Shown piece after piece: positions 5,822 to 22,585 of a DNA stretch of 35,829 bases. The translations under genes and the position numbers were made by a program. The notes under the pieces were generated by a model. It was given only the letters and a program-made list of their open reading frames with translations. It searched no databases and was not told the DNA's origin. The stretch is from a virus, in the IMG/VR virus record IMGVR_UViG_3300009620_000018, positions 1-35,829 of that record. The stretch is one strand, 5' to 3'. How positions within the stretch are numbered: position 1 is the stretch's first letter; each line of letters opens with the position of its first letter.

Positions 5822-5860
5822 ATCTGTCACTATATGCATTTGGAACTATTTAAATGTATG
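5822..5860 (-). promoter_or_regulatory. TATA promoter of the late (packaging) operon
   Basis: On the minus strand the sequence reads ATTTAAATAG (complement of about 5846-5855). Archaeal transcription starts roughly 25 nt downstream of the box centre, here about 5826, leaving a leader of only ~5 nt before the ATG at 5821. Upstream, 5880-5938 carries TGTAAAC/GTTTACA half-sites and GAACGTTTA words. Confidence 0.6.
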
Positions 5861-6051
5861 GGTGAGATATTGTATTGTAAATGTTTGTGATGTAAACTTT
5901 TGTATTGTAGACGTTTACAGAATGGCCTGAACGTTTAGTGGGTATATGTTCCCTTGGTGGGCAATGTTAGCTATTCAAAAGAAGTTTGAAAAAATGACTT
6001 CTGCCTCAACACACTAGGGAAAGGGCGCAGTTATCGTCGGTAGCACCGATT
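5861..6051. other. Intergenic control region with ACGTTTA repeats
   Basis: No convincing gene. It contains an inverted pair TGTAAAC...GTTTACA (5891-5897 and 5912-5918), the word GTAGACGTTTACAGAAT (5907-5923) and TGAACGTTTAG (5928-5938). The last two resemble the repeats at 10.2-10.4 kb. Because the late operon leaves to the left and the RNA-like zone to the right, this is a divergent control region and a possible operator or origin. Confidence 0.4.
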
Positions 6052-6796
6052 TAGTCATCCTTCGGATGACTACATTGAGAAATCGGAAAAATGGTCATCC
6101 CCTTCGGGGATGGCGGAAAAGCGTCGCTTCCCGTCGCTTCCTTCGGAAGCGTGTGGCCGGATGTCGGCAAATCTGGTTTTATATACCCCACTCCTCGGCG
6201 ACCCCGCCTGCGCCCCTCTTCATTCCGAAGGAATCAGGTGGGGGGGAAAAGTTTTAAATCGGCCCCTGCCGTTAGGGGGGCCAGTTCCAAGTCGCCGAAG
6301 CAGCGACCCCCCGAAAGGTTGTCGGCTTGGGACCGGGGGGCGCGAGCGTGTGGTTCCGTAGGAACCACACGCAGTCGGGCGGGAGTCCTTCGCGAGTCGA
6401 GCCACGAGAGTCCTCCTCGACCAAATTGCTACTACTTCGTAGTAGCCCACTAAAAACCTACGACTCTCCCCCCTACGGGGGGAGTTTTACTTGGGAAACA
6501 TTATGATTACCCCTCCCCAGCCTTCGGCTGCTCTGGGTCGCCACAACTTTGCCCAGCCCCTACGGGGCTGCTGGACGAGAGACGACGCAACCAGCCGGCA
6601 AGCAACCGGTGCTCTACTCCTACGGAGTAGCCGGGGGTTGTATGGGGAGATAATCGGGCAACCTGATGCCACCCCGTAAGGGGTGGCTAATGGGGCCCAA
6701 TGCCCCTGCCAGCGATGAAGGATAAGTCCACCCTGTGGGGTGGCACCAGAGCGGGGGGTTTTTTAGGGGGGATGCGTTTATGTCTTCGGACATAAA
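6052..6796 (+). repeat. Array of compact hairpins with TTC/TAC/GTA/GAA loops
   Basis: At least 13 short perfect or near-perfect hairpins: 6052-6072, 6096-6112, 6135-6151, 6222-6234, 6348-6370, 6428-6446, 6466-6484, 6518-6530, 6554-6570, 6614-6630, 6668-6687, 6728-6743 and 6777-6796. Stems are 5-10 bp, the arms differ between copies, and most loops are TTC or TAC (or their complements GAA, GTA) closed by CG pairs. This is a family defined by shape and loop, not by a copied sequence. Only the last one overlaps a gene. A structured transcript is the simplest reading. Confidence 0.7.
6174..6262 (+). promoter_or_regulatory. Two archaeal TATA boxes in the hairpin zone
   Basis: GTTTTATATACC (~6176-6187) and GTTTTAAATC (~6251-6260) are strong archaeal TATA-box matches inside otherwise GC-rich DNA. 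Starts would fall near 6207 and 6280. The second coincides with the foot of an extended stem in which CCAGTTCCAAG (6281-6291) can pair with CTTGGGACCGG (~6327-6337), so it may drive a structured RNA. Confidence 0.45.
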
Positions 6797-7250
6797 ACCC
6801 ATCACAGTCCTCTTGGATATCCGAACTCTCCTTGAGAGAGTCGTGGTCCTCCTGACGGCTAACGGTCTTGCTGCGAAGCAGGCGCCGCCGGTCGCCGGGG
6901 CGGCTTCGGAGTCCGACGGGGCTGCCCTGTTCTCTGCCGAACCGGTTCAGTCTTTCCAGACTGCGCCGGCCCCGGCGGTAGCAACTGCCGTTCCGACTAA
7001 GGAACAGGCCGAGCAGAGCCGAAAGGTGGCGCTCACCAATGCGCAGTTCGCAATCGCTGGTGCTTTCATCGGTGGAGAAGCGCCACAGTGGCGCTGTCTT
7101 GTCGCCGGATGCCGAACTCACGGCACCGGGAAGACTTTTTCATCGCTTAGCCGATGGCAGTCTGACAAGAATTGGGGCGGCCTTCTCGGGCACATCGGAC
7201 GATGGCACAAATCTTCTGTGCCGGGCTTCCGAGAGACTGTGAAGCCCTGA
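6780..7250 (+). CDS. Ala/Pro-rich protein with a C-terminal C2H2-like finger
   Basis: 156 aa from the ATG at 6780 (MSSDIKPITVLLDIRTLLER). An N-terminal helical region is followed by a low-complexity Ala/Pro/Glu linker (~40-80). The C-terminal part has CLVAGC and, about 30 residues on, GHIGRWH, giving a C-x4-C ... H-x4-H arrangement like a zinc finger. Ordered N-terminus, flexible linker and small finger suggest a DNA- or RNA-binding protein. A start further upstream (6735) would run through hairpin-array sequence and is less likely. The chosen ATG is buried in a perfect hairpin (6777-6796), suggesting translational control. Confidence 0.55.
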   Translation: MSSDIKPITVLLDIRTLLERVVVLLTANGLAAKQAPPVAGAASESDGAALFSAEPVQSFQTAPAPAVATAVPTKEQAEQSRKVALTNAQFAIAGAFIGGEAPQWRCLVAGCRTHGTGKTFSSLSRWQSDKNWGGLLGHIGRWHKSSVPGFRETVKP

Positions 7251-7511
7251 GTAGGCTGGGACAATGATGGCAACGGCCGGAGTCCTAGTCTACCGGGGAG
7301 CTTCCAAACCGGTTTCCTTTGAGTCCCACCACAATGACGCCGAACAATGGTGTAGCAACCTAGTAGGCCAGTGGCTTAGGCGACTCCGATGACAAGGACC
7401 TGCCTAAGCAGCAAGACCTGACTCAAGGGAAACCAAGACCCAATGACGGGGAGCCGAGACAGAACCGGCTCCCCAGAGGGACTTTACGATTATTGACTTA
7501 TTGGTTCAAAA
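7251..7511 (+). other. Gene-free spacer holding the structured RNA candidate
   Basis: Apart from the stems listed for 7311-7474, the spacer contains the repeated words CAATGA(T/C)G (7262, 7332, 7441) and no reading frame with coding character. The last 35 nt are AT-richer and lead into the zinc-ribbon ORF at 7512. Confidence 0.4.
7311..7474 (+). ncRNA. Candidate structured RNA (multi-stem)
   Basis: No ORF covers this gap. Outer stem: 7311-7325 pairs with 7420-7434 over 15 bp, including one G-U. Inside it, CACCA (7327-7331) pairs with TGGTG (7348-7352), and GCTTAGGC (7374-7381) pairs with GCCTAAGC (7402-7409), giving a three-way-junction shape. A 9-bp hairpin follows: GGGGAGCCG (7448-7456) with CGGCTCCCC (7466-7474). 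Found by eye only; a conserved structured RNA or a regulatory leader of the next small gene are both possible. It is not a tRNA. Confidence 0.55.
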
Positions 7512-7643
7512 ATGAAAGAGCCAAAACAGTGCGAAATGTGCGACAAGGACCTATCCGAGGTCAACCGCATTCGGTACCTGACCAGCAGACACCACTGCTG
7601 TGGAACCTGCTGGGACCGGATGACCTTGGAAAAGGTGGACTGA
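7512..7643 (+). CDS. 43-aa zinc-ribbon micro-protein
   Basis: MKEPKQCEMCDKDLSEV is followed by HHCCGTCW: two CxxC-type knuckles separated by ~22 residues, the classic spacing of a small zinc ribbon. The basic middle (RIRYLTSRHH) could contact nucleic acid. It is flanked by the candidate RNA upstream and a GGGGTC-hairpin element downstream. Function unknown; zinc binding is inferred from the cysteine pattern. Confidence 0.55.
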   Translation: MKEPKQCEMCDKDLSEVNRIRYLTSRHHCCGTCWDRMTLEKVD

Positions 7644-7658
7644 GCACAGCACACAGAT

Positions 7659-7714
7659 AGCCCGACATATGCAAACCGGGGGTCAAGGGGTGGGCTGAAA
7701 AAGCCCCTTCCCCC
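7659..7714 (+). terminator. 3' element A: conserved word plus hairpin after the zinc-ribbon gene
   Basis: ACATATGCAAACCGGGGGTC (7665-7684) is followed by a hairpin with inner stem GGGCT/AGCCC around a GAAAA loop (7692-7706) and outer GGGG/CCCC (7687-7690, 7710-7713). A close copy of the word follows the next gene too (8183-8201). It may be a transcript 3' end or RNA-processing signal; there is no long T-run here. Confidence 0.5.
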
Positions 7715-7741
7715 ACCTTACAGTAACCGTATCATTGAGCT

Positions 7742-7788
7742 GATGGGATAGCTAACCCATCCGTGCTAGTGGCGATGCACTAGAGGAG
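7742..7788 (+). promoter_or_regulatory. Two hairpins and ribosome-binding site before the 7800 gene
   Basis: GATGGG/CCCATC (7742-7747, 7756-7761) and CTAGTG/CACTAG (7766-7771, 7778-7783) are stacked directly before GAGGAG (7783-7788), 11 nt ahead of the ATG at 7800. Folding of the second hairpin abuts the Shine-Dalgarno sequence and could modulate initiation. Confidence 0.4.
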
Positions 7789-7799
7789 AAACACAACCA

Positions 7800-8162
7800 A
7801 TGGTTGTACACGACATCCGCAAAATGTGGATAACAGCAGCCGGATACCTGACCAGCCGGCAGAAGTACATCGGAGACTGGTCCGGAGACAAGGTGGTCCG
7901 TGCCGTACAGGACCACAACTATTCGCAGGAGATACAGACAATGCTGCGAATGACCTACGGCATAAAGGCAGTGTTCTGCGTAGAGGACCGCAACATATAC
8001 CGCCTATACGCTGGGGGAAAGCGCCAGTTTGTGGACACCGTATACCAGAACATCTTCTGGTACCCACTGAACTTCGGTGCAAAGAAGGAGAGGCTCGGCG
8101 ACCACCTTCGCCGGGGTGGCTTCACCTTGAAGGAGAAGGACTTCGAGGACGACAAGACCTAG
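7800..8162 (+). CDS. Hypothetical basic protein, 120 aa
   Basis: The product is mixed alpha/beta and basic, with an aromatic-rich centre (IYRLYAGGKRQFVDTVYQNI) and a Lys/Glu-rich end. No catalytic motif or metal site seen. GAGGAG upstream of the ATG supports the start. It is bracketed by hairpin elements (7742-7783 upstream; 3' element B downstream), so it appears to be a single-gene cassette. Other frames here are open by chance because of high GC, but this one has the ribosome-binding site. Confidence 0.55.
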   Translation: MVVHDIRKMWITAAGYLTSRQKYIGDWSGDKVVRAVQDHNYSQEIQTMLRMTYGIKAVFCVEDRNIYRLYAGGKRQFVDTVYQNIFWYPLNFGAKKERLGDHLRRGGFTLKEKDFEDDKT

Positions 8163-8177
8163 GCAAGTCTAAAAACT

Positions 8178-8276
8178 GCCCCACATACGCCAACCGGGGT
8201 CCACCACTGCGGGGCTTAAACAGAAGCAGTGGTGCCCCACCATCAAGTCTTTTTATTTTCTTTATGTTTTTTATCC
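8178..8276 (+). terminator. 3' element B: conserved word, strong hairpin and T-runs
   Basis: ACATACGCCAACCGGGGTC (8183-8201) matches element A at 7665 with two substitutions and one gap. It runs into a hairpin with 9-bp stem CACCACTGC/GCAGTGGTG (8202-8210, 8226-8234) extended by GGGG/CCCC (8196-8199, 8235-8238). T-rich DNA follows (8248-8276), the usual form of an archaeal or intrinsic terminator. Confidence 0.6.
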
Positions 8277-8513
8277 GTAAGTGCTTGTCCCGCGCGCTCA
8301 CTACGTAATTCGCGCACGCGAACTCGCGAACATTCACGTATTCGCGTATTCGTGAACCAGAACCGGACCCGCATCGCGCATCACGAAACCCGCATCCCGC
8401 GTCGCGCTCCACGTATCGCGCATCCCGCGCCGCGCCGTGTTGTTCGTGAACGTGGGCAAAAGTTCGGCAACCGCCGAATGGGGTGCGAGGATTTCGTTCA
8501 CATACACACGCCC
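8277..8513. other. Low-complexity CGCGAA/CGCATC spacer
   Basis: No credible gene. The DNA is built from short related words (TTCGCG, TTCGTGAAC, CGCATCGCGCATC, CCCGCGTCGCGC) and contains a 6-bp hairpin TTCGGC-AACC-GCCGAA near 8463-8478. This is where the TTCRYGAA-rich half of the window begins. Open frames here translate to Arg/Ser/His repeats and are rejected as coding. Confidence 0.5.
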
Positions 8514-8563
8514 GCGTTCGACCTCGTCGTCAGAACCATAGTTTTAAATACTTCCTCGCGTGT
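8514..8563 (+). promoter_or_regulatory. Twin promoter, copy 1
   Basis: Upstream box GCGTTCGACCTCGTCGTC (8514-8531), TATA box TTTTAAATAC (8542-8551) and downstream box TTCCTCGCGTGT (8552-8563). The same two boxes with identical 20-nt spacing recur at 10588-10637. Predicted start is near 8572, with GGTGAG just before the ATG at 8581. Confidence 0.75.
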
Positions 8564-8580
8564 ATGTAGCCGGTGAGAAA

Positions 8581-9375
8581 ATGACTACCTCCCCACACGA
8601 ACAGGTCGCCCTCGTAATCGCAGGGGTCCTCACGGCGCTCACAAACGCCGTGGCTACCCTTCGCGAACTCGAGGCAGCGGCAAGCAAGCCCATCGTGGAC
8701 GCGTCCGTAAAGGTCGCGAACACGGTGACTCCCTCGCACCTTGCACAGGTCGCGAAGGACAACCTGCCCATCCGTTTGCAGGGCAAATCGCGAAACCGGT
8801 TCATAATCGCGATGCAAGCCCTGCTTTCGGGAGGGACCATCGCGGACGCCGAAGCCGCGTGCGGTGTGAAAACCGTTCGCGAATGGTGTGCGAAGATGGG
8901 CGGCGTTGACGCCGCACGGGCGTGGGCCGCGAACAATTTCGGTTCGCTCCCACAAATCCCCACGCAGGCAATCGCGACAGCGGTGCCTTCCGTGAACGAC
9001 CCACGACCCGAGCCCATCCCCCTCGCGACAGCGGGCGGGAGCGACAGCATACACGAAGCAATTCGTGTAGCCTCCGCATACTGCACGAAGCGGTCCGCGG
9101 ACGGTAAGGGCTTCCGTATCCGGCACGATGTGTTCGCATACGGGAAAACGACCGAGGACGGCCTTTACGCACTCATACGTGGCGTGAAGAAAGACGGGTC
9201 GTTCACAAACATCCACGCAATCACAATACACGAAGACCGCTTCGTGAGCGTGAAGCAGGGAACCGCCGGATGGAAGGACACCATCGTGTCGCTTGCGACA
9301 CAAATGCCGCCCACCACCGTGTTCGGGGGCGGCGCGACCACGAAGAACGACCCCGTCGGGTCGTTCTTCGCATAG
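8581..9375 (+). CDS. Hypothetical 264-aa protein with a helix-turn-helix-like segment
   Basis: Start at 8581, placed by the TATA box and GGTGAG; an upstream in-frame start at 8560 lies before the predicted transcript start. The N-terminal ~90 residues are helical and Ala-rich. Residues ~78-105 (ALLSGGTIADAEAACGVKTV...) read as a helix-turn-helix. A Pro-rich linker (~120-150) precedes an alpha/beta C-terminal domain (~160-260) with no motif I know. Almost every Arg codon is CGN, matching the TTCRYGAA-rich region. It shares its promoter type with the 10650 gene, so the two are probably co-regulated; a regulatory or replication-initiation role is possible but unproven. Confidence 0.6.
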   Translation: MTTSPHEQVALVIAGVLTALTNAVATLRELEAAASKPIVDASVKVANTVTPSHLAQVAKDNLPIRLQGKSRNRFIIAMQALLSGGTIADAEAACGVKTVREWCAKMGGVDAARAWAANNFGSLPQIPTQAIATAVPSVNDPRPEPIPLATAGGSDSIHEAIRVASAYCTKRSADGKGFRIRHDVFAYGKTTEDGLYALIRGVKKDGSFTNIHAITIHEDRFVSVKQGTAGWKDTIVSLATQMPPTTVFGGGATTKNDPVGSFFA

Positions 9376-9392
9376 GCAGGACACGAACCGGT

Positions 9393-9408
9393 CGCCCCTT
9401 CGGGGGCG
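9393..9408 (+). repeat. TTCG tetraloop hairpin between two genes
   Basis: CGCCCC-TTCG-GGGGCG, a 6-bp stem with a TTCG loop, lies 18 nt after the stop of the 8581 gene and 12 nt before the zinc-finger ORF. It matches the style of the 6.0-6.8 kb hairpins. Confidence 0.5.
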
Positions 9409-9420
9409 GCCACCACGTGT

Positions 9421-9564
9421 ATGAACCTGCTCGAATGTTCGCAATGCGACGCACGTTTCTTTTGCGAACGAACACACCAGCGGCACGAACAGTCGTGCCG
9501 CCGCACAACCCGCGAAAGCGGTTCGCGTATTCCCCGTCGTGGTCGTGATGAACGACGCGAATGA
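9421..9564 (+). CDS. 47-aa C2H2/C2HC zinc-finger micro-protein
   Basis: Residues 5-26 read CSQCDARFFCERTHQRHEQSC near the start: a C-x2-C pair, an aromatic core, then H-x-x-H/C ligands, a classical single finger. The tail is Arg-rich (RRTTRESGSRIPRRGRDERRE), suitable for nucleic acid binding. It was found by reading the gap after the 8581 gene. Small single fingers are common in archaeal viruses. Coding status rests on the clean finger pattern. Confidence 0.55.
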   Translation: MNLLECSQCDARFFCERTHQRHEQSCRRTTRESGSRIPRRGRDERRE

Positions 9565-9676
9565 GGACTGTGATACGCGAATTGCCGCGAAAGGATGCGC
9601 AAAATCGTGTATTCAGGAACAAAGGTTCGTGAACAATGAAGCGGACGTTTGTGAACATAATTCGCGAATGCTATGA
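9548..9676 (+). CDS. Possible 42-aa cysteine-containing micro-protein
   Basis: It starts MNDANEDCDTRIAAKGC and overlaps the end of the zinc-finger ORF by 17 nt. Four cysteines (CD...GC...SC...VCEH) and an acidic N-terminus could form a metal site, but the DNA is also dense in TTCRYGAA words that create chance frames. It ends just before the terminator at 9696, which mildly supports it. Confidence 0.3.
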   Translation: MNDANEDCDTRIAAKGCAKSCIQEQRFVNNEADVCEHNSRML

Positions 9677-9695
9677 TACGAGCAGAACGCGAAGC

Positions 9696-9745
9696 GGTTC
9701 ACGAATGTTCGCGGAGTTCGCGAACCTTTTTTTTATTTTTTTTTT
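9696..9745 (+). terminator. Hairpin terminator with long T-run
   Basis: GGTTCACGAA (9696-9705) pairs with TTCGCGAACC (9717-9726), 9 of 10 positions, followed at once by eight T, one A and ten T (9727-9745). It ends the 8581-9676 transcription unit. The stem is itself made of TTCRYGAA words. Confidence 0.75.
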
Positions 9746-9749
9746 CGAT

Positions 9750-10084
9750 TTCGCGAATTCACGAAGTCGAACACGCGCTAACGCGCACGAACAATCGCGC
9801 AGCCGCGAATTCACGAATAGGGGTAAAACATCGCGAATTCACGAAGCGCGCGAACATCCGCGTATCCGCGAACATACACGACCCGCGCGCACTTTCACGA
9901 ATTCCCGCGCACATCCTTATATACTCCCCATATAAAACTTTCCACTTCACGAATTCACGAACCTGTGGGTCGCCTGTCGGTGAACTTTCGCGAAAAACCG
10001 CTGCCGAGATGTTCACGAATGCAGGACGCGCGTTCCCGCGTTCGCGAATACACGCGTTCCCGCGCGCGCTTTCACGAATTCGCG
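9750..10084. repeat. Array of near-palindromes TTCRCGAATTCRCGAA
   Basis: Six clear copies of a motif centred on GAATTC with CACGAA/CGCGAA arms: 9750-9765, ~9803-9817, ~9831-9846, 9894-9904 (short), 9945-9961 and 10071-10084. Many single TTCGCGAA or TTCACGAA words lie between. All six reading frames show Arg/Glu/Ser/Phe periodic translations, so this is not coding. Arrays of this kind serve as replication origins, partition sites or operator clusters. Confidence 0.65.
9913..9940 (+). promoter_or_regulatory. TATA-like elements inside the repeat array
   Basis: CCTTATATACTCC (~9914-9926) and CATATAAAAC (~9930-9939) resemble archaeal TATA boxes. No convincing gene follows for 700 nt, so they may drive an untranslated RNA or mark an easily melted segment of an origin. 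Confidence 0.35.
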
Positions 10085-10587
10085 CATTCGCGCACTCACG
10101 AACATTGTGAAGGATTTGGGAACGTTGGGAAGGAAATGGCTTCTCCAAATGTTCGTAAATTCTCCCGATGTTCGTGTGTTTTACTCGGAAGTTCGTAAAG
10201 AGTAAGTGAGAATTTGGGTGTTTGTGAACGTTTGGAGAAGCCTTTGGCGAACATTTAGGTTCACATTCTGTGAACGTTTAGAGAACTTCGTAGAACGTAT
10301 ATGTATATAGGAAGTATATAGGAACGTATACGTATATGAACATCGAAGATAGATAAGTTCTTTGTGAACGTTTATAGAATATTCCCTATATGTGTATGGA
10401 ACATTTGCGTATAAGATTGTCCGAAGGAACATTTGCATAGGTGTATGGAACATTGTGAACCGATACGTGCCTGTTCCTATATGTTTGTATTCTTTCCGCA
10501 AATATTTGTATTCTTTTTCACAAAGAGGCCGCTTGTGGTCGCCGCTGGAGGGGGCAAGCGAGAAGCGGCTTCACGACGTATGCGGGC
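10085..10587. repeat. AT-richer spacer with GAACGT direct repeats
   Basis: Three 20-nt copies of a motif TGTGAACGTTTRKAGAA lie at 10221-10240, 10267-10286 and 10361-10380, with an inverted relative at about 10139-10158. GAACGT also occurs at 10293 and 10322. Further on, GTGTATGGAACATT is repeated (10392-10405, 10441-10454). No coding frame has gene-like character. Repeats plus AT-richness make this a candidate origin or operator region. Confidence 0.55.
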
Positions 10588-10637
10588 GCGTTCGACCTCA
10601 TCGTCTAATCCAAAGGCTTATAACCTTCCTCGCGTGT
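10588..10637 (+). promoter_or_regulatory. Twin promoter, copy 2
   Basis: Upstream box GCGTTCGACCTCATCGTC (10588-10605) has 17 of 18 bases identical to copy 1. The TATA box is CTTATAAC (10617-10624) and the downstream box TTCCTCGCGTGT (10626-10637) is identical. The spacer between boxes is 20 nt in both copies while its sequence differs, so the boxes are under selection. Confidence 0.75.
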
Positions 10638-11403: not shown

Positions 11404-11470
11404 CGCGAATATCCCGAAGAGGGGGCTGGCCCTATGGTTATCCCCCCATCGGAGATGGGGGAGATAACCT
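11404..11470 (+). promoter_or_regulatory. Hairpin element, copy 1 (upstream of the 11505 gene)
   Basis: CGCGAATATCCCGAAGA (11404-11420) precedes a long hairpin with arms 11436-11450 (GGTTATCCCCCCATC) and 11454-11469 around a GGA loop. Copy 2 at 12117-12185 has the same lead sequence and fold but different paired bases. Confidence 0.6.
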
Positions 11471-11504
11471 TACGCTTCAAAACCGCACTTTGGAGAACGA
11501 AAAT

Positions 11505-11947: not shown

Positions 11948-12237
11948 GGGACTTCGCTAATGACTCGCGATATTTCCTGAACCACGCGAAGCCACCCGAT
12001 TGGGAACAGTCGGCACATTGCTTGTGTGGTCGCGACTGCACCTGCTGGCTTCACGATAACGGCTGCTTGTGTAATACGTGCCTTGACGAACAAGCGGGCC
12101 TCGCAATGTGCGCTACTCGCGAATATCCCGAAGATGAGGCTCTATCCCATTGGTTCACTCCCCATCGAAGATGGGGAAGTGAACCTATGCTAACACTTTG
12201 GTTGGCTATTATTCGTATATTCAGGAAACAAATATGA
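11944..12237 (+). CDS. 97-aa cysteine-rich protein
   Basis: Residues ~26-47 carry CLCGRDCTCWL...CLCNTC, eight cysteines and one nearby histidine, enough for one or two zinc sites. The C-terminal third is encoded by DNA that also contains hairpin element copy 2, so that part may be shaped by the RNA signal rather than protein function. Its ends overlap both neighbours as ATGA. It directly precedes the first amidoligase and is translationally coupled to it. Confidence 0.5.
   Translation: MRDFANDSRYFLNHAKPPDWEQSAHCLCGRDCTCWLHDNGCLCNTCLDEQAGLAMCATREYPEDEALSHWFTPHRRWGSEPMLTLWLAIIRIFRKQI
12117..12185 (+). promoter_or_regulatory. Hairpin element, copy 2 (upstream of the first amidoligase)
   Basis: TCGCGAATATCCCGAAGA (12117-12134), then GGTTCACTCCCCATC (12152-12166), loop GAA, and GATGGGGAAGTGAACC (12170-12185). 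Compared with copy 1, the GGTTA/TAACC ends became GGTTCA/TGAACC and one CC/GG pair became T/A, so pairing is kept by paired changes. It lies ~50 nt before the amidoligase ATG; copy 1 lies ~36 nt before its gene. Confidence 0.6.
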
Positions 12238-13472
12238 ACAAAAACGAAACAAAAGACATATGTGAACATTGTGAAGAAGCACCCGTTACGGAAATTGTGC
12301 ATTTGGGATGGCGAGAACTAACGCCGGCTCTACTATGCGAACCCTGCATCGGAAACCTACGGGAATGTGAATACTCCGGCACGCTACACACTTTGGATAG
12401 CGAAATGCACGAACTTGACGACGGTATGATTGTTTGTGATGGAGTTCGTGAAAGCGAGTGCTCAATTTGCGATTGGACCGACGACCTTTGCCTTACTTCG
12501 CAAATGCTGGTTCTATGCGACGGCGAACTGATTTCACGAAATTGCCGTGATGATACGGCAATTTGCTACGAGTCGGGAGAACGCTACCACATTGACGAAA
12601 TGGTGTATAACGAAGAATATGGGGAGTGGTTTCACATAGACTGCGCGCCCGCAGAAGCGGAGCGCTGGTATCGCAGGTTTTCGCATATCATTAGCAATAA
12701 CTTCGCAAAGTTTCCCGTTAGAAACTTTGTGGGAATTGAGTTCGAGGCCGAGGACGGGGAAACGATTTTGCAGGACACGTGGACACAAAAATACATCGCG
12801 GAAGCGAAAGAAGATGGTTCACTATCCTGCGGCACGGAATACACGACTCACCCGATGCGGGGCGACGACATCGCGAACACCGTGGATGAAATGTGCGAAC
12901 GGTTCGAGAATGGGGGCTTCACACTTGGCTCGAATGTCGGGTGGCATTTCCATTACGAAGCACAAAAATTCGGGACGAAGGCACAGAAAAATATATGGAC
13001 AGCAATCGGGAAGTTTCAGGATGCCTTTATGGGAAACAGCCACCAGCCGGGCTGGGCATACTTCGCGGATATGATACGTGGATACTCGGAAGCGTGGAGC
13101 AACCCATATCGTGATTGGGTTCGTGCTTGGGCAAACACACAAGCACAATACACATATGCTGACCACTATCGCAGATACCAGCCGTCCAGCGCCAGCAGCC
13201 CACGTGCATTCGCAAACTTTACACCAATGCGTCGCGATGAAGGCCGCAGAATTGAGATACGGATGTATTATCCCTGCCGTGTCCTGCGCGAGTGCAAAGA
13301 CTACGCGGAATTAGCCGAAGATTACAAATCGTTCATACGATTTTGGGACGAGTTAATTCGCAAAGCCGCATACAGGTTTAATGATTTGCGGTTTCCCGAT
13401 GAGATGGACGGCTTCGCAAGGCAGTTTTCCGTCCCAACACGGGAATGGCTTATGAACAAGGAGAAAAAATAA
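12234..13472 (+). CDS. Amidoligase-2 family enzyme with N-terminal zinc domain
   Basis: 412 aa from the ATG at 12234, which overlaps the upstream stop (ATGA). The C-terminal two thirds match amidoligase-2, circularly permuted glutamine-synthetase-like ATP-dependent carboxylate-amine ligases. I see GIEFE (~167-171), EDGSLSCGTEY (~193-203), a C-x-H-x-H-like WHFHYE (~237-242) and a late RRIEIR strand, the expected metal/ATP and substrate positions in order. The first ~140 residues hold repeated Cys/His pairs (CEHC, CEPC, CSIC, C...C), probably a zinc-binding domain for target recognition. A class II glutaminase abuts it downstream. Substrate unknown; peptide, cell-surface or protein modification are options. 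Confidence 0.8.
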   Translation: MNKNETKDICEHCEEAPVTEIVHLGWRELTPALLCEPCIGNLRECEYSGTLHTLDSEMHELDDGMIVCDGVRESECSICDWTDDLCLTSQMLVLCDGELISRNCRDDTAICYESGERYHIDEMVYNEEYGEWFHIDCAPAEAERWYRRFSHIISNNFAKFPVRNFVGIEFEAEDGETILQDTWTQKYIAEAKEDGSLSCGTEYTTHPMRGDDIANTVDEMCERFENGGFTLGSNVGWHFHYEAQKFGTKAQKNIWTAIGKFQDAFMGNSHQPGWAYFADMIRGYSEAWSNPYRDWVRAWANTQAQYTYADHYRRYQPSSASSPRAFANFTPMRRDEGRRIEIRMYYPCRVLRECKDYAELAEDYKSFIRFWDELIRKAAYRFNDLRFPDEMDGFARQFSVPTREWLMNKEKK

Positions 13473-14735
13473 ATGTGCGAAATACAATTCGTAATAGGCA
13501 AAGACCTAAACAAATACACAATTGACGAATTCCTAAACTTGCTACATTCAGGAAGTTACGGAAACGCAGATGCAACGGGAATATTTGGCGAAGGTGGCGT
13601 GCTCCTGAAGTGGAACACGGCATTTTACAAACTCCCGTTTGAGAGAAGCCAACAAGTTTGGAAACAACTCGCGAATTCAGAAACGCGATGGCTAATCGGA
13701 CACAACCGGCTCGCTACGCAAGGTAGCGAAACGCTGAAGAAGAACAACCACCCGTTCAGGAATGATACCTGCTCGGTGGTTCACAATGGGATTATCACGA
13801 ACGATGATATTCTCAAAGAGAAATACAAATTGAACTATCCCGAACAAACGGACAGCGCGATAATACCACACCTGATTTCGCACTATTTCACGGATGATAC
13901 GGACGAAGTGCAGGCGATTAAACTCGCGATGGAGAAAATCACAGGCAGTTATTCGATATTTGTATTTATGCACGCTTCACAAAACCTGTATTACTTGCGA
14001 AACACCGGCTCTCTATTCGAGTTTATGCGTGCGGAGCGCTCGAATGGCGAAGTGCTGATATACGGAAGCACGAAATCAACGAGTTTGAGCGGTATCGGCG
14101 CGGCCACGATGAACGGCGTGTTTGCGATGGATTCATTGCGAAGCAGAACTAAATTTACGCCTTCTTCGGGAAGGATATACCAGATAGTGGTTCCCGAAAT
14201 GAACATAAAGGAAGTAGCATCATTTACACCAAAGATTGGGAATTACACATACACGGCATATGGCCCAGCGCAAAGCGGGCAGGGCAATATTTGGGCAGAA
14301 GCGACCGACACAACGAAAATCTCGAAGCGCCAGCGCAAACGACAGGAACAAGCGCAAGTTCGTGAAGCACTAAAAGAGAGCGATGTTGATATTCAGGAAT
14401 ATTGGGATATAATTATGGACGAAATGGATTATCTTTCGGGATTGTATGCGCAGAATGATAACATAGATGCCGCATTTCAGGAAGCAGCCGTAAGTTTTCA
14501 CGATAAATCACAAACAGTAGTGGTTGAGAACATATCGGAAGTGCTGGCTGACCAATTCGACCTGTATCTACGTGCTCGCAAATGGTATCCACAAAACACG
14601 ATACTCACACCCAGCACGAAGGGAACCTGCAATTTCACGGTTCAATACAAAGAAGTGCTGACTTTCGTTGAAAATAACCACTCACTCAAGCGCGACCTCG
14701 CGAAACTCACGGAAGGTGAGAAGATTACATATTAG
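13473..14735 (+). CDS. Class II glutamine amidotransferase (Ntn hydrolase)
   Basis: 420 aa; the ATG directly follows the amidoligase stop. Cys2, exposed by removal of Met1, is the expected nucleophile. GHNRLATQG (76-84, Arg79), NHPF (92-95), HNGII (104-108) and TDSAI (126-130) match the glutamine-binding and oxyanion positions of GlmS/PurF-type domains, so it should release ammonia from glutamine. The usual synthase partners are absent: no phosphoribosyltransferase, sugar isomerase or SGGxDS PP-loop is visible in the C-terminal ~200 residues, which are helical and of unknown function. The natural acceptor of the ammonia is therefore the amidoligase beside it, or the C-terminal domain. Confidence 0.87.
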   Translation: MCEIQFVIGKDLNKYTIDEFLNLLHSGSYGNADATGIFGEGGVLLKWNTAFYKLPFERSQQVWKQLANSETRWLIGHNRLATQGSETLKKNNHPFRNDTCSVVHNGIITNDDILKEKYKLNYPEQTDSAIIPHLISHYFTDDTDEVQAIKLAMEKITGSYSIFVFMHASQNLYYLRNTGSLFEFMRAERSNGEVLIYGSTKSTSLSGIGAATMNGVFAMDSLRSRTKFTPSSGRIYQIVVPEMNIKEVASFTPKIGNYTYTAYGPAQSGQGNIWAEATDTTKISKRQRKRQEQAQVREALKESDVDIQEYWDIIMDEMDYLSGLYAQNDNIDAAFQEAAVSFHDKSQTVVVENISEVLADQFDLYLRARKWYPQNTILTPSTKGTCNFTVQYKEVLTFVENNHSLKRDLAKLTEGEKITY

Positions 14736-14743
14736 GAGAATAT

Positions 14744-15202
14744 ATGGGACATTTAACTTACGATGAATGGGTCGCTAATGGCGACGCCGGAATGTGCGAA
14801 CTGTGTGAACAGTTAATGAACGATGAGATTAAAGTTTTGGGATGCTGTATTGGCGAAGGGAGTAAAGCAAACCTTATTCCACAATGGGCATTTAGCGACG
14901 GTAAGGTTCACGCGCAGGTAAACATACGATGGAAAACCTTTGATACACGAATTAAATTGTGCGATACACGCCTCTTTACGCACAAGGATGGGGCGCCGAA
15001 GGTGCAGGGTAGGCGGCTCGCGAACGAGCCGATAGAAGTCGCGTATGAGAGCGTTCCGGATACCTGCGATGTATGCGGTGAACACCGTATTCGCGAAACG
15101 ATACACAAAGTAGCCCCGAAAGATGACTTAAATCCACTCCGCTCGGCAACGTGGATGCAAGTGAATTTTTCCTGCTACAAATGCGAAGGAATTAAAATAT
15201 GA
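14744..15202 (+). CDS. 152-aa zinc-binding protein
   Basis: It has an N-terminal CELCEQ with a later CC pair (GCC), then a beta-rich middle (FSDGKVHAQVNIRWKTFDTR), and a C-terminal CDVCGEH...CYKCEG pair of knuckles. This suggests two zinc sites around a small beta-domain. AGGAG lies 6 nt before the ATG. Coupled by ATGA overlap to the next ORF. Encoded between the glutaminase and the second amidoligase, so it may be a carrier, adaptor or substrate of that system (inference). Confidence 0.65.
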   Translation: MGHLTYDEWVANGDAGMCELCEQLMNDEIKVLGCCIGEGSKANLIPQWAFSDGKVHAQVNIRWKTFDTRIKLCDTRLFTHKDGAPKVQGRRLANEPIEVAYESVPDTCDVCGEHRIRETIHKVAPKDDLNPLRSATWMQVNFSCYKCEGIKI

Positions 15203-15333
15203 ACAACGACTATATGAAATGCGGATGTGTTACGATAAAAAACGAAATTACAATTCTCTCTCTTTGCGAAGAACACGAATGGATGCTATGTGCGGAGTGG
15301 GAACTAATTGACGAACAGGAGAACGATGATTAA
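15199..15333 (+). CDS. 44-aa cysteine/histidine micro-protein
   Basis: MNNDYMKCGCVTIK...LCEEHEWMLC: a CGC knuckle and a CxxH pair, an acidic protein probably folding around one zinc. The ATG overlaps the previous stop (ATGA). Accepted on operon geometry plus metal pattern. Confidence 0.5.
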   Translation: MNNDYMKCGCVTIKNEITILSLCEEHEWMLCAEWELIDEQENDD

Positions 15334-15356
15334 AGCAGATGAACCAGATTGCACGA

Positions 15357-15384
15357 AGAGGGGAGTCCAGTTTGTGGACTTCAC
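15357..15384 (+). promoter_or_regulatory. Hairpin before the 15411 gene
   Basis: AGTCCA and TGGACT arms around a GTTTG loop, preceded by CGAAGAGGGG, the same lead word seen in hairpin element copy 1. It sits ~30 nt before the ATG at 15411. Possibly a third, shorter member of that element family. Confidence 0.35.
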
Positions 15385-15410
15385 CGAACTCTCACAAAAA
15401 CGGAGAAACG

Positions 15411-15638
15411 ATGAACGAATGTGAAACAGAACGAAACGAAGTCGGCTTCGGCTCGCGACCTAACGAACTCGTGTTGCAGGAGCGTATGGATGGCTACGGC
15501 GGTCGCGAAAGTATTACCTGCGATAAGTGTGGGGACACGAAAGTTCGCGATGTGCTGGTAAATTTTGACCGGATTAGATTGCGAATGAAGCACATATACT
15601 GTCCACATTGTGTGGATGAGTGTGGATGCAACGGATAG
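15411..15638 (+). CDS. 75-aa zinc-ribbon protein
   Basis: Start at 15411 with GGAG 6-9 nt upstream. The N-terminal part is polar; the C-terminal half carries CDKCGD and CPHCVDECGC, a zinc ribbon with an extra Cys pair. The distance between knuckles (~27 residues) includes a beta-hairpin-like basic segment (FDRIRLRMKHIY). Function unknown. Confidence 0.6.
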   Translation: MNECETERNEVGFGSRPNELVLQERMDGYGGRESITCDKCGDTKVRDVLVNFDRIRLRMKHIYCPHCVDECGCNG

Positions 15639-15649
15639 GAGATACAAAT

Positions 15650-16435
15650 ATGCAAACATATATACTAACAAGCAAACTTCGCGAAAGTAGGAGTTTACCT
15701 AAAGAGAAGATTAGCGTAGCATCAGATACGCTTTCGTCCGATTTGTTGAATACCCTACTCGCGAAGGGACTCGGTAATGCGAACATTGTAAGTGGGGTTT
15801 TCGCTTTTGCAGATAGGCCCGCTATACGATACAGGAACATTTTACCAACACGAAGAAGAAGGACGCTCGCGGCAGATAGGGGCTTCGCAAATCTAATTTA
15901 CGATTGGATTATGAACGGGGTTGGAGATGCATTTGTGTGCTTCTCACGACGCAGTTCGGCATCATTTCGCGAAATACAGCCCTACAAAGTTAGCGAAGAT
16001 ACATACTTCTTTTTCGACGGGAGATATGGGACAGGAGATTTGTGGACTGCGATTCGCGATGCCCGCACTCAAAAGCAGAATATCCCGCAGGTAATTCACG
16101 ACAAATTTTGTGAAGTGGGAAGTTATAGCGCTGGCGGGCTGCACTTATTCAGGGGAACACTCGAAGAATGGTTGAACGGAGAATGTGAAGATGAATTCCC
16201 GTTTTCAAATTCGGTTCTATATGCTGCACCCGAAGATTTACGACTGCCGCGCCCTTACAGGATTTGGGTATGGAAAAATGGCGGTCAACTTTACGATGAA
16301 TACTTTAAGAGTGGTTATAATTCGGGAACTGCACGTGTATTTCTGGACCGAGTAGCACCGAGATTTCTTAACGATGTCGAAGATGAATTTGATACTTGGG
16401 AAGGCGTCGATGGGATTAGGAGATGGCGTTTATGA
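15650..16435 (+). CDS. Hypothetical 261-aa protein in the amidoligase cluster
   Basis: Start at 15650 behind GGAGAT. Mixed alpha/beta with many aromatics (TYFFFDGRYGTGDLW, PYRIWVWKNGGQLYDEY). No nucleotide-binding or metal motif seen. A patch of basic residues (PTRRRRTL, ~66-73) may bind nucleic acid. It lies between the zinc proteins and the second amidoligase and overlaps the next gene as ATGA. It could be an acceptor protein of the amide ligation, but nothing in the sequence proves it. Confidence 0.55.
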   Translation: MQTYILTSKLRESRSLPKEKISVASDTLSSDLLNTLLAKGLGNANIVSGVFAFADRPAIRYRNILPTRRRRTLAADRGFANLIYDWIMNGVGDAFVCFSRRSSASFREIQPYKVSEDTYFFFDGRYGTGDLWTAIRDARTQKQNIPQVIHDKFCEVGSYSAGGLHLFRGTLEEWLNGECEDEFPFSNSVLYAAPEDLRLPRPYRIWVWKNGGQLYDEYFKSGYNSGTARVFLDRVAPRFLNDVEDEFDTWEGVDGIRRWRL

Positions 16436-16617
16436 ACAGATACATATTTGTCCCAACCATAATCAAGGGGAAATCACGCCGCAGATATATGTGTTATGCA
16501 AATGACGACGAAGAAGCGTGGGAACTTTTGCGAAATGATATAGCGCGACACCAAAATTGGTTTCTTCAGGATGTGGACACGATTTACGGAGATGCATACG
16601 ATGCCGGAACGGAGTGA
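16432..16617 (+). CDS. Hypothetical 61-aa protein
   Basis: Start chosen at 16432, where ATG overlaps the upstream stop and GGAG lies ~9 nt before it; an ATG at 16423 is possible. A strand-rich N-terminus (RYIFVPTIIKGKSRRRYMCY) followed by an acidic helix (DDEEAWELLRNDIARHQ). Its end overlaps the second amidoligase by 17 nt, so the two are coupled. Confidence 0.5.
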   Translation: MNRYIFVPTIIKGKSRRRYMCYANDDEEAWELLRNDIARHQNWFLQDVDTIYGDAYDAGTE

Positions 16618-17797
16618 TTTATACACGGAATTTTGGGACTCAAGTAGGTGGCTTTTGGAAAATGCGTTAAATGCACAGCACTCAAATATGCGACATTCGC
16701 AGGAAGTAGCACAAAGATATTGGGATGATAACTTGAGAAATGTGGATGTTGAACTGATTTTGCGCTGCGAAGAGTGGATTGATAGCGAAGATTTTTGGGG
16801 GGATATATCTCGCGAAAGGGTGCGACCTGCCGGCGGTCAGCCCCCACGCTGGGAGTCCGAATTCAGGAAGGTGGAGAGCAGCGAGTTTGATGAAAATCCT
16901 TACAAATACTTTGTGGGCGTGGAAATGGAAGTGAACGATAGCCAAGTCAAGCGACACATTCGTGAAAGGGAACTCACTTCTGATAATAAAGAAGCGTGCT
17001 TTCCCGATACATCTAAATCGACTTGGGATTGTGTTCACGATGGTTCCCTGAACTGCGGTAGTGAATTCAGATTACGCGAAGTGTATCAGGGGGACCGGCT
17101 ATTTAAAGAAGTCAGGGACTTCTGTATGCTCCTTCAGGGGAGGGCCTATAAAATAGACGATACCTGTTCTGTTCACATACACATTGATGCGATAGATATG
17201 AATTTAAATTCCCTAAAGAACCTGATAAAACTACATCGCAGATACGAAGAATTCCTGTATGACTCCGTGTCCCCGTTGCGAATTAATGAACGATTTTGTC
17301 GGCCAACGAAGTCCACCCGTCCTTCACTCACTCGAAATCCAGCACGGAAATATTCGTTCACACCGCTGGGAAATGCGATGACTACTACCAACCTTCGCGA
17401 CTTTAAACTCGCTTATTATGACTGCGGCTCATCCCGACAGGCTCAGGCATATACGGAGCGAGAATTGCGCAAATATTACGACGGCAGGTATTGGGGGCTT
17501 AATGTCCATAGCATATTCCTGAACGGGACGGTCGAAGTGCGCCATCTTCACGGAACACTTGACCCAAATGAGATTAATTCGTGGGCATTGATAAACTTGG
17601 CGATGGTTCACAAGTCAATTACAGGCCTCACACGAAGGGAACGTCGCACATTGGAATACAATAACAAGCCCACATTACGAGAATTTATGAATCTCTTTCC
17701 GAATGATATACAAATACTATTTGAAACGGGATATGATAAAGAACGAATGTATCGCCAAATTGGTAAAAACCACAAGGAGGACTATGTGGAAATTTGA
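16601..17797 (+). CDS. Second amidoligase-2 family enzyme
   Basis: 398 aa from the ATG at 16601; in-frame ATGs at 16571 and 16592 are possible. The core shows all amidoligase-2 landmarks: GVEME (106-110), VHDGSLNCGSEFR (145-157), CSVHIHID (189-196) and, late, WGLNVHSIFLNGTVEVRHLH (298-317) leading into a helix. These correspond to the metal-, ATP- and substrate-binding strands of this GS-like ligase family. Unlike the first copy it lacks a cysteine-rich N-terminus, having a helical one instead, so the two ligases probably act on different partners or successive steps. It is last in a nearly gapless run starting at 11505. Confidence 0.85.
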   Translation: MPERSDLYTEFWDSSRWLLENALNAQHSNMRHSQEVAQRYWDDNLRNVDVELILRCEEWIDSEDFWGDISRERVRPAGGQPPRWESEFRKVESSEFDENPYKYFVGVEMEVNDSQVKRHIRERELTSDNKEACFPDTSKSTWDCVHDGSLNCGSEFRLREVYQGDRLFKEVRDFCMLLQGRAYKIDDTCSVHIHIDAIDMNLNSLKNLIKLHRRYEEFLYDSVSPLRINERFCRPTKSTRPSLTRNPARKYSFTPLGNAMTTTNLRDFKLAYYDCGSSRQAQAYTERELRKYYDGRYWGLNVHSIFLNGTVEVRHLHGTLDPNEINSWALINLAMVHKSITGLTRRERRTLEYNNKPTLREFMNLFPNDIQILFETGYDKERMYRQIGKNHKEDYVEI

Positions 17798-21250: not shown

Positions 21251-22585
21251 ATGGTAAATCTACACGACTTACACAAGTATTATGAGAGTTGTTGGGTTCT
21301 CGGTAAACGAGATTCAATCATTGAGAATAATGAAACGCGCATACTTTCGGCCCTTCTATGGGGAATATCAGGAACATCCGTTTGTATACGTGGTGAATCC
21401 GGTAGCGCAAAGACGAAGATACTTAATGCAACGTCTACTTTGTTCTTTGGAGATGCAGGGCTGAGTGGGAGAAGTCCAGATATGCTGCTGTTAAATTCCT
21501 CGTCGGCGAAGGGGCAAATTACTCCAGATAATGCTGCATATATTGGACAGACTTCGCGCTGTGTAATTCCCGAATTACAGAATATTCTTACTTCGCCTCA
21601 CCTGGAGGCAATGATTAAACTCTGGATGGAAGGAAGACCATACATATATTCGCGCAGTGAGTTTGGCAAACGTATGATACGGTTGATACTGGAACCGAAA
21701 CCGATTCTCACGAACCTTGCCGATGGAAATGAGTTTTTACCTGAACTTCCAGTAGAAATGCAGCGCAGAGTAGTTAGCCTCCCAACGTTCTCTAGTAAGG
21801 CCCTGAATGAAAAAGTCCACCATATGAAAGCCAAGGGCAGATACTTACCTGAGAATGAACTCAATCAACTTACCCGCAGGGAGGTCACACAACTGAGACA
21901 AACCTGCCGCCAGGCAATGGACATCAAACAGCGCGTCATCAACCCAGGTGCTGATATAGTTAGAAAGACAATTCCAACAAAATATACAATGTCAAATACA
22001 TTCATCGATTACTACTTCGATGTAGTAGAAGCAATAACCAAATTCCACCACCACGGAAGAGTAACGGATGGGAAATATATCTTTTCTACACCAGAGGACA
22101 ATTACTTGGCCTTTGTGTTGGCAGGCGATATCTTTCGGGATATGTCCATCGGCATTCAACCATTGGGAAAACAAATAATTGAATTTGTTCCCAAGGCAGA
22201 AGTATGGGGCGACCTTGTCAGCGACAAGGAGACGGACTCTGTTCACATAGATGAAATCATAGATTTCCTCTCAGAAGAAGGATTTGCCAGGGCGAAGAAA
22301 CTTGTGAAGATTGTTCTGGGAAGATTGGTGGACACGAACTTCCTTCGTAAAATACCGCGGAGGGAAAGATATTATAGAACCAAAGACATCAGTTTCGAGC
22401 AAAGGGTTGACTGGAAGGAACTGGTTACTGGTTGTGTGCAGAATGTTAAGGAGCATTATCCTCATCTACAGAGTGAATACTCCAAAATGTCCCTGCACAG
22501 ATATACGGATCCCTTTACAGGGAAGCGTAAAGACATACCAATGGTAGTCAAAGTTTATGGAGGTAATACAGACAATGAAACCTGA
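21251..22585 (+). CDS. MCM/MoxR-like AAA+ ATPase, probable replicative helicase
   Basis: 444 aa. Walker A GESGSAKT (48-55) has the MCM-like GxxGxAK(S/T) form. The Walker B position reads CVIPELQN, and PILTNL (~157-162) sits where sensor 1 is expected; a basic stretch ELPVEMQRRVV follows like a sensor/arginine-finger helix. The C-terminal ~100 residues hold a probable winged helix (IDEIIDFLSEEGFARAKKLV). It is shorter than cellular MCMs and lacks their N-terminal zinc domain. Next to a Cas4-like nuclease, PolB and primase, the replicative helicase role is the natural reading; a MoxR-type remodeller is the alternative. Confidence 0.7.
   Translation: MVNLHDLHKYYESCWVLGKRDSIIENNETRILSALLWGISGTSVCIRGESGSAKTKILNATSTLFFGDAGLSGRSPDMLLLNSSSAKGQITPDNAAYIGQTSRCVIPELQNILTSPHLEAMIKLWMEGRPYIYSRSEFGKRMIRLILEPKPILTNLADGNEFLPELPVEMQRRVVSLPTFSSKALNEKVHHMKAKGRYLPENELNQLTRREVTQLRQTCRQAMDIKQRVINPGADIVRKTIPTKYTMSNTFIDYYFDVVEAITKFHHHGRVTDGKYIFSTPEDNYLAFVLAGDIFRDMSIGIQPLGKQIIEFVPKAEVWGDLVSDKETDSVHIDEIIDFLSEEGFARAKKLVKIVLGRLVDTNFLRKIPRRERYYRTKDISFEQRVDWKELVTGCVQNVKEHYPHLQSEYSKMSLHRYTDPFTGKRKDIPMVVKVYGGNTDNET

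Follow-up and report, generated by a model that had tools for sequence, protein, structure and literature searches.

Which reaction might be carried out by a viral glutaminase that has no synthase attached and lies directly behind the gene for a divergent ligase, and which of the surrounding genes belong with the two? These questions are raised by the IMG/VR record IMGVR_UViG_3300009620_000018, taken here as a whole (35,829 bp, the complete record, hereafter the window), in which positions 12234–17797 had been put forward in a preliminary description as a candidate new amide-ligation system of two amidoligases, a glutaminase and a set of Cys-rich small proteins in an archaeal virus. Searches of IMG/VR yielded six related contigs (L005/L014, L012, L013, L015, L016 and L017), along with one contig identical over the region, and it is with these six relatives that the locus was compared. 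As judged from this comparison, the conserved unit is one ligase (ligase 1), one class II glutamine amidotransferase (GATase, or glutaminase) and one protein of the type represented in the window by a 261 amino acid (aa) product. We consider it somewhat probable (approximately 0.55) that ligase 1 and the glutaminase together constitute a two-subunit, glutamine-fed amidating enzyme, the target of which is most likely something other than murein.

Ligase 1 and the adjoining glutaminase

Ligase 1 is encoded on the plus strand at 12234–13472, in an open reading frame (ORF) of 412 aa, and combines a Cys-rich N-terminal region (residues 1–140), harbouring a CxxC..CxxC pair that is invariant across the seven viruses, with a glutamine synthetase (GS)-like Amidoligase_2 domain (approximately residues 160–412). 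The window protein has no Pfam match of its own, finds the amidoligase family PHROG_7631 with an E-value of 0.0054, and returned no match in cultured phages. One of its relatives matches PF12224 at 26.8 bits, which is above the cut-off (1.1e-5, or 1.1e-7 per genome), and the family is further connected to the second ligase of the window (ligase 2, see below), with E-values of 5e-8 for the window protein and of 2e-5 to 1.9e-12 for five of the six relatives. The motifs GxExE, DGSL..GTE, HxH and ExR are invariant across the seven viruses, and ligase 1 has all nine residues (E, D, S, E, H, H, N, E and R) that it shares with ligase 2 and with three amidoligases of phages. On the strength of these matches and motifs, ligase 1 is a divergent, GS-like Amidoligase_2 enzyme in which the catalytic motifs are kept. 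Structural comparison, made with a low-confidence model (predicted local distance difference test, pLDDT, 48), is consistent with this: residues 160–412 align to YbdK and to glutamine synthetases with Z 6.7–5.1, ahead of unrelated folds, and these proteins occupy the top 13 rows of this second-look alignment, although identity is only 9–16 %. A plain Foldseek search with the same model gave no significant match and did not recover YbdK or the glutamine synthetases.

The product of the next gene (13473–14735, plus strand, a 420-aa ORF) matches the Pfam families GATase_6 (7.9e-10) and GATase_7 (5.5e-8), together PF13522/PF13537, as well as PHROG_4736 (1.3e-20), and a profile of its family finds the glutaminase domain of Escherichia coli GlmS (1xff) at 2.4e-10. 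Residues Cys2, R79, N105, G106 and D127 are invariant across the seven viruses and fall at the GlmS positions, such that the protein shares the Cys2, R, N-G, D catalytic set of this class II, Ntn-fold domain. In contrast to GlmS, neither an isomerase nor any other synthase domain is attached (none was recognised in Pfam and PHROG scans), and the C-terminal ~180 residues are without a known relative or assigned fold. By its N-terminal Cys and its glutamine-binding residues, the product is a complete class II glutaminase, as had been proposed from the sequence of the window. Since this glutaminase stands alone, an enzyme that accepts its ammonia is needed.

The candidate for this role is ligase 1. 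In the window the ATG of the GATase begins at the base immediately after the ligase 1 stop (a gap of 0 nt), in keeping with the tight coupling suggested at the outset, and ligase 1 lies immediately before the GATase in 7/7 viruses, with gaps of −8, 12 or 13 nt in the relatives. In L012 and L013 the GATase starts with TTG behind a strong Shine–Dalgarno sequence, and this again yields Met-Cys at the N-terminus.

The conserved partner, the Cys-rich proteins and ligase 2

The third member of the unit is the 261-aa protein (15650–16435, plus strand), for which a homologue of 225–249 aa is found directly after the GATase in five relatives (phmmer, 1.8e-6 to 2.6e-8). A partner of 225–261 aa is thereby kept in all six viruses, the window included, whose contig reaches that far. 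The family has no Pfam or PHROG match, and its possible nature is suggested by the motifs TGLFAF, VHxR, HxGGYG and SYxSFVW, which by eye line up with those of the glutaminase. At position 2 all six members have Q, K, R or T and never Cys, hence the nucleophile expected of an active glutaminase is missing. With a low-confidence model of the protein (pLDDT 42), Foldseek ranks class II GATases first (GlmS and PurF; E-values of 0.07–0.4, probabilities of 0.60–0.28) and VIA-align gives Z 4.0–3.0 against them, whilst a search of BFVD returned one unnamed weak match, with a phage GlmS-like protein at rank 5. Profile–profile comparison of the family with the GATase by hhalign was not significant, nor was hmmsearch with a 33-member GATase profile. 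A shuffle test gave the family a z of ~2 against the GATase of the same viruses and of ~1 against the wider GATase family, an unrelated control family giving ~1. From the modelled structure, the 261-aa family is a candidate, and no more than that, for a glutaminase-like protein devoid of the catalytic Cys.

Gene order differs between the window and its relatives in this region. Three Cys-rich ORFs, all on the plus strand, separate the GATase and the 261-aa gene in the window: a 152-aa CxxC protein with 9 Cys (14744–15202), a 44-aa ORF with 4 Cys (15199–15333) and a 99-aa ORF with 7 Cys and a CxxC..CxxC arrangement (15339–15638). In the relatives, a Cys-rich protein of 177–184 aa comes after the 225–249-aa gene. 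The 152-aa protein may be its counterpart, with 27 % identity in a forced alignment that is not significant by phmmer, and none of the small Cys-rich ORFs of the window has a significant phmmer homologue among the six relatives. Small Cys-rich proteins are a genuine feature of the locus, whilst the earlier count of 'five or so' was generous.

Ligase 2 closes the region on the plus strand. Its 408-aa ORF opens at 16571, upstream of the inner ATG at 16601 that had previously been used, and ends as described at 17797. Its assignment is straightforward, with matches to PF12224 (Amidoligase_2; 4.5e-15, 56.6 bits against a curated cut-off of 22 bits) and to PHROG_2443 (5.7e-22), so that together with the family matches and shared catalytic residues of ligase 1 the presence of two amidoligases is borne out. 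A homologue of ligase 2 is, however, absent from all six related contigs (0/6), and the conserved core accordingly holds one ligase. The suggestion that the two ligases form a conserved unit is thus rejected, and of the trio expected to recur in related contigs, ligase 1 and the glutaminase are always together whilst ligase 2 never accompanies them. Ligase 2 is an optional extra, being confined to the virus of the window among the seven compared.

Looking further afield, 36 records were collected that encode a related GATase, 11 of which have PF12224 above the cut-off; judged by coordinates, it lies close to the GATase beyond the window's own relatives only in L020, L022 and L024. L021, L025–L030, L036, L039, L041 and L042 are more distant viruses in which a related GATase lies no more than a few kb from a class II ribonucleotide reductase (RNR).

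Upstream of ligase 1, at 12148–12189 on the plus strand, the window contains an inverted repeat forming a strong RNA hairpin with GGTT..AACC ends and a folding z of −6.45. Hairpins of the same shape and the same ends, but of different sequence, occupy the same place in five relatives (L005:6627–6670, L012:7933–7976, L013:6506–6549, L015:6632–6675 and L016:4455–4498), with folding z of −5.63, −6.44 and −4.28 in three of them. A second copy is found in the window at 11433–11472, some 700 nt upstream of the first, behind a shared 24-nt repeat. Scanning of the window for tRNAs and Rfam families found nothing.

Promoter-like elements and the probable host

As regards the host, the evidence comes from elements preceding the operons. 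At approximately −30 to −33 of the head of the rightward operon, 6/6 viruses have CAAAG followed by a YTTATWA-like element, which is the form of an archaeal transcription factor B recognition element (BRE) and TATA box; in the window this is at 10607–10624 on the plus strand, with the head gene starting at ATG 10650. The leftward operon is preceded in 5/5 cases by a TATA-like element, namely TTTAAATA in the window (5847–5854, minus strand) and CTTATATA in 4/4 relatives examined. Taken together, a TATA-like element stands before 11/11 operon heads, and 9/11 fit a strict YTTAWA at −50 to −18, compared with 4 % of all ATGs. As this pattern was picked with the sequences in view, and as related viruses are not independent events, it supports an archaeal host without being proof of one.

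Among other genes, the best matches of DNA polymerase B include haloarchaeal tailed viruses as well as bacterial ones, the RNR is nearest to that of bacterial phages, and the region of one relative that corresponds to the window encodes a primase–polymerase-like protein. As no match was found among the cellular genome contigs searched, the assignment is drawn from the promoters: the conserved BRE/TATA-like elements indicate that the virus probably infects archaea, in agreement with the preliminary description. Most archaea have no murein, and pseudomurein is confined to two methanogen orders.

The two operons diverge from a region of ~4.7 kb (5900–10590) with a GC content of 0.55–0.60, compared with ~0.44 elsewhere, in which short degenerate TTCGCGAATTCACGAA-like repeats but no clear gene are seen. 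A 51-nt repeat (80 % identical) occurs at 8513–8563 and 10587–10637; the rightward operon has its TATA-like element within one copy, whilst the other, lying in the GC-rich stretch, may act as a further promoter. Elsewhere in the window, a 444-aa protein (21251–22585) with a Walker A-like motif, GESGSAKT, and 64–65 % identity among relatives has no match in Pfam, PHROGs (E-values up to 0.01), cultured phages or the PDB, and probably belongs to the replication set as an ATPase. A squalene/phytoene synthase, an isoprenoid enzyme (PF00494, 2.3e-24), is encoded in a related virus, with L062:604–1209 being the same gene as L005:15624–16229.

Known phage cassettes and the likely role of the pair

Bacterial podoviruses commonly have an amidoligase adjoining a class II GATase, as in phiEco32, LUZ24-like, tf and RIO-1-like phages. 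The two usually belong to a cassette that also contains an ATP-grasp protein, a PF14395 ligase and a gamma-glutamyl cyclotransferase and that has been read as modifying peptidoglycan against superinfection (PMC5498523, PMC10580990). The pair also occurs in Aeromonas LAh_9, Arthrobacter Shrooms and marine OM43 phages, with more than 30 OM43-type genomes reported to have it, and the ligase-then-GATase order is the same in MW202615, phiEco32, Shrooms and LAh_9. The claim of a new system is thereby reduced: the locus is a variant of a gene pair already known from phages, and its novelty lies in the apparently archaeal setting, the Cys-rich arm of the ligase and the conserved 261-aa partner. The phiEco32-, LUZ24- and RIO-1-like cassettes likewise place an Amidoligase_2 ligase directly 5′ of a class II GATase, in some cases have more than one GS-like ligase, and are sited among replication genes. 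The lineage of the window differs in that the cyclotransferase (GGACT, PF06094) and the phiEco32-type COOH-NH2 ligase (PF14395) were each found in 0/7 records, some of which are fragments, and in having the Cys-rich extension on ligase 1, the conserved 225–261-aa partner and an apparently archaeal host. ATP-grasp was not recognised in those window proteins that were scanned, the relatives not having been searched for it. Shrooms and the OM43 phages have a reduced set of amidoligase and GATase only, with no cyclotransferase visible in the Shrooms neighbourhood shown; their hosts are bacterial, and the Shrooms ligase is ~22 % identical to ligase 2.

Under the two-subunit reading, the glutaminase would hydrolyse glutamine via Cys2, and the ammonia released would pass to ligase 1, which would use ATP to convert a carboxylate into an acyl phosphate before amidating it. 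The Cys-rich N-terminal region of the ligase would probably bind zinc and select the substrate, and the 261-aa product would join as an adaptor or third subunit; it could be an inactive glutaminase copy with a part in regulating or docking the complex. The substrate would most likely be a carboxylate of a protein, whether viral or from the host, or of a small molecule. What the sequences themselves establish are the protein families, their catalytic residues, the conserved gene adjacency and the promoter-like elements; that the two proteins form a complex, that ammonia is channelled between them, that the reaction is an amidation and what it acts on are inferred. Because the host appears archaeal and most archaea have no murein, murein itself is probably not the target, and the cell-wall peptide formerly listed as a potential substrate becomes unlikely. 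Several observations weigh against this proposal. Both structure models are of low confidence, the glutaminase-like identity of the 261-aa family is marginal or not significant by sequence, and GS-like amidoligases can take amino acids in place of ammonia. Furthermore, only ~8/29 more distant viruses with a related GATase carry PF12224, with just three of them having it nearby, and no relative of ligase 1 or of the terminase, as provirus or host copy, was found in the cellular genome contigs searched.

Were the virus instead bacterial, the locus could be an instance of the podovirus cassette, its ligases forming unusual amide links in murein side chains and its GATase supplying or removing nitrogen, such that superinfecting phages are kept out. 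This is the reading proposed for the phiEco32, LUZ24, tf and RIO-1-like phages with the same gene pair, and the pair recurs in other phages that encode a ligase 2 relative, although biochemical proof of it was not found in the literature surveyed. We regard it as unlikely here, given that the promoter elements are archaeal in type, that the cyclotransferase and PF14395 ligase which define the cassette are missing from every record, and that the window proteins scanned include no recognisable ATP-grasp. A different chemistry is conceivable, in which the ligase would tag a protein with an amino acid or peptide. The Ntn-fold enzyme would then be no ammonia donor but an amidase or peptidase by which the tag is removed or trimmed. 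GS-like ligases are reportedly often linked to Ntn-fold peptidases, a finding of Iyer et al. 2009 that is relayed by citing papers, and Cys2 would serve as nucleophile in both chemistries. The GATase nevertheless retains the GlmS-class glutamine-binding set (R, N-G and D), which points to glutamine as the substrate and makes such a tagging pair distinctly unlikely. More improbable still, in our estimation, is that the glutaminase feeds ammonia to a host enzyme in nitrogen or nucleotide metabolism, for example towards a modified base such as archaeosine, with the adjacency of the ligase being incidental. Many distant viruses do have a related GATase a few kb from a class II RNR with no amidoligase nearby, and one report ties a phage amidoligase, GATase and cyclotransferase to host nitrogen use (PMC10945688). 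Within this virus lineage, however, the GATase is inseparable from ligase 1, and the window proteins that were scanned include no recognisable enzyme of the deazaguanine type.

The two-subunit amidating enzyme consequently remains the reading we prefer. A bolder extension of it, which we advance only tentatively and think rather doubtful, is that tailed viruses of archaea possess a three-part complex dedicated to amidation, in which a GS-like ligase whose substrate arm binds zinc is joined by a stand-alone glutaminase and by an inactive copy of the latter, the target belonging to host or virus and not being murein. If this is true, the widespread ligase–glutaminase pair of phages would serve something other than peptidoglycan in general. 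The amidoligase–glutaminase cassette of phages has long been read as peptidoglycan modification against superinfection, and its occurrence in stripped-down form in probably archaeal viruses questions that reading for the core pair. With only two or three genes, this version offers a minimal system in which to find the reaction and its target.

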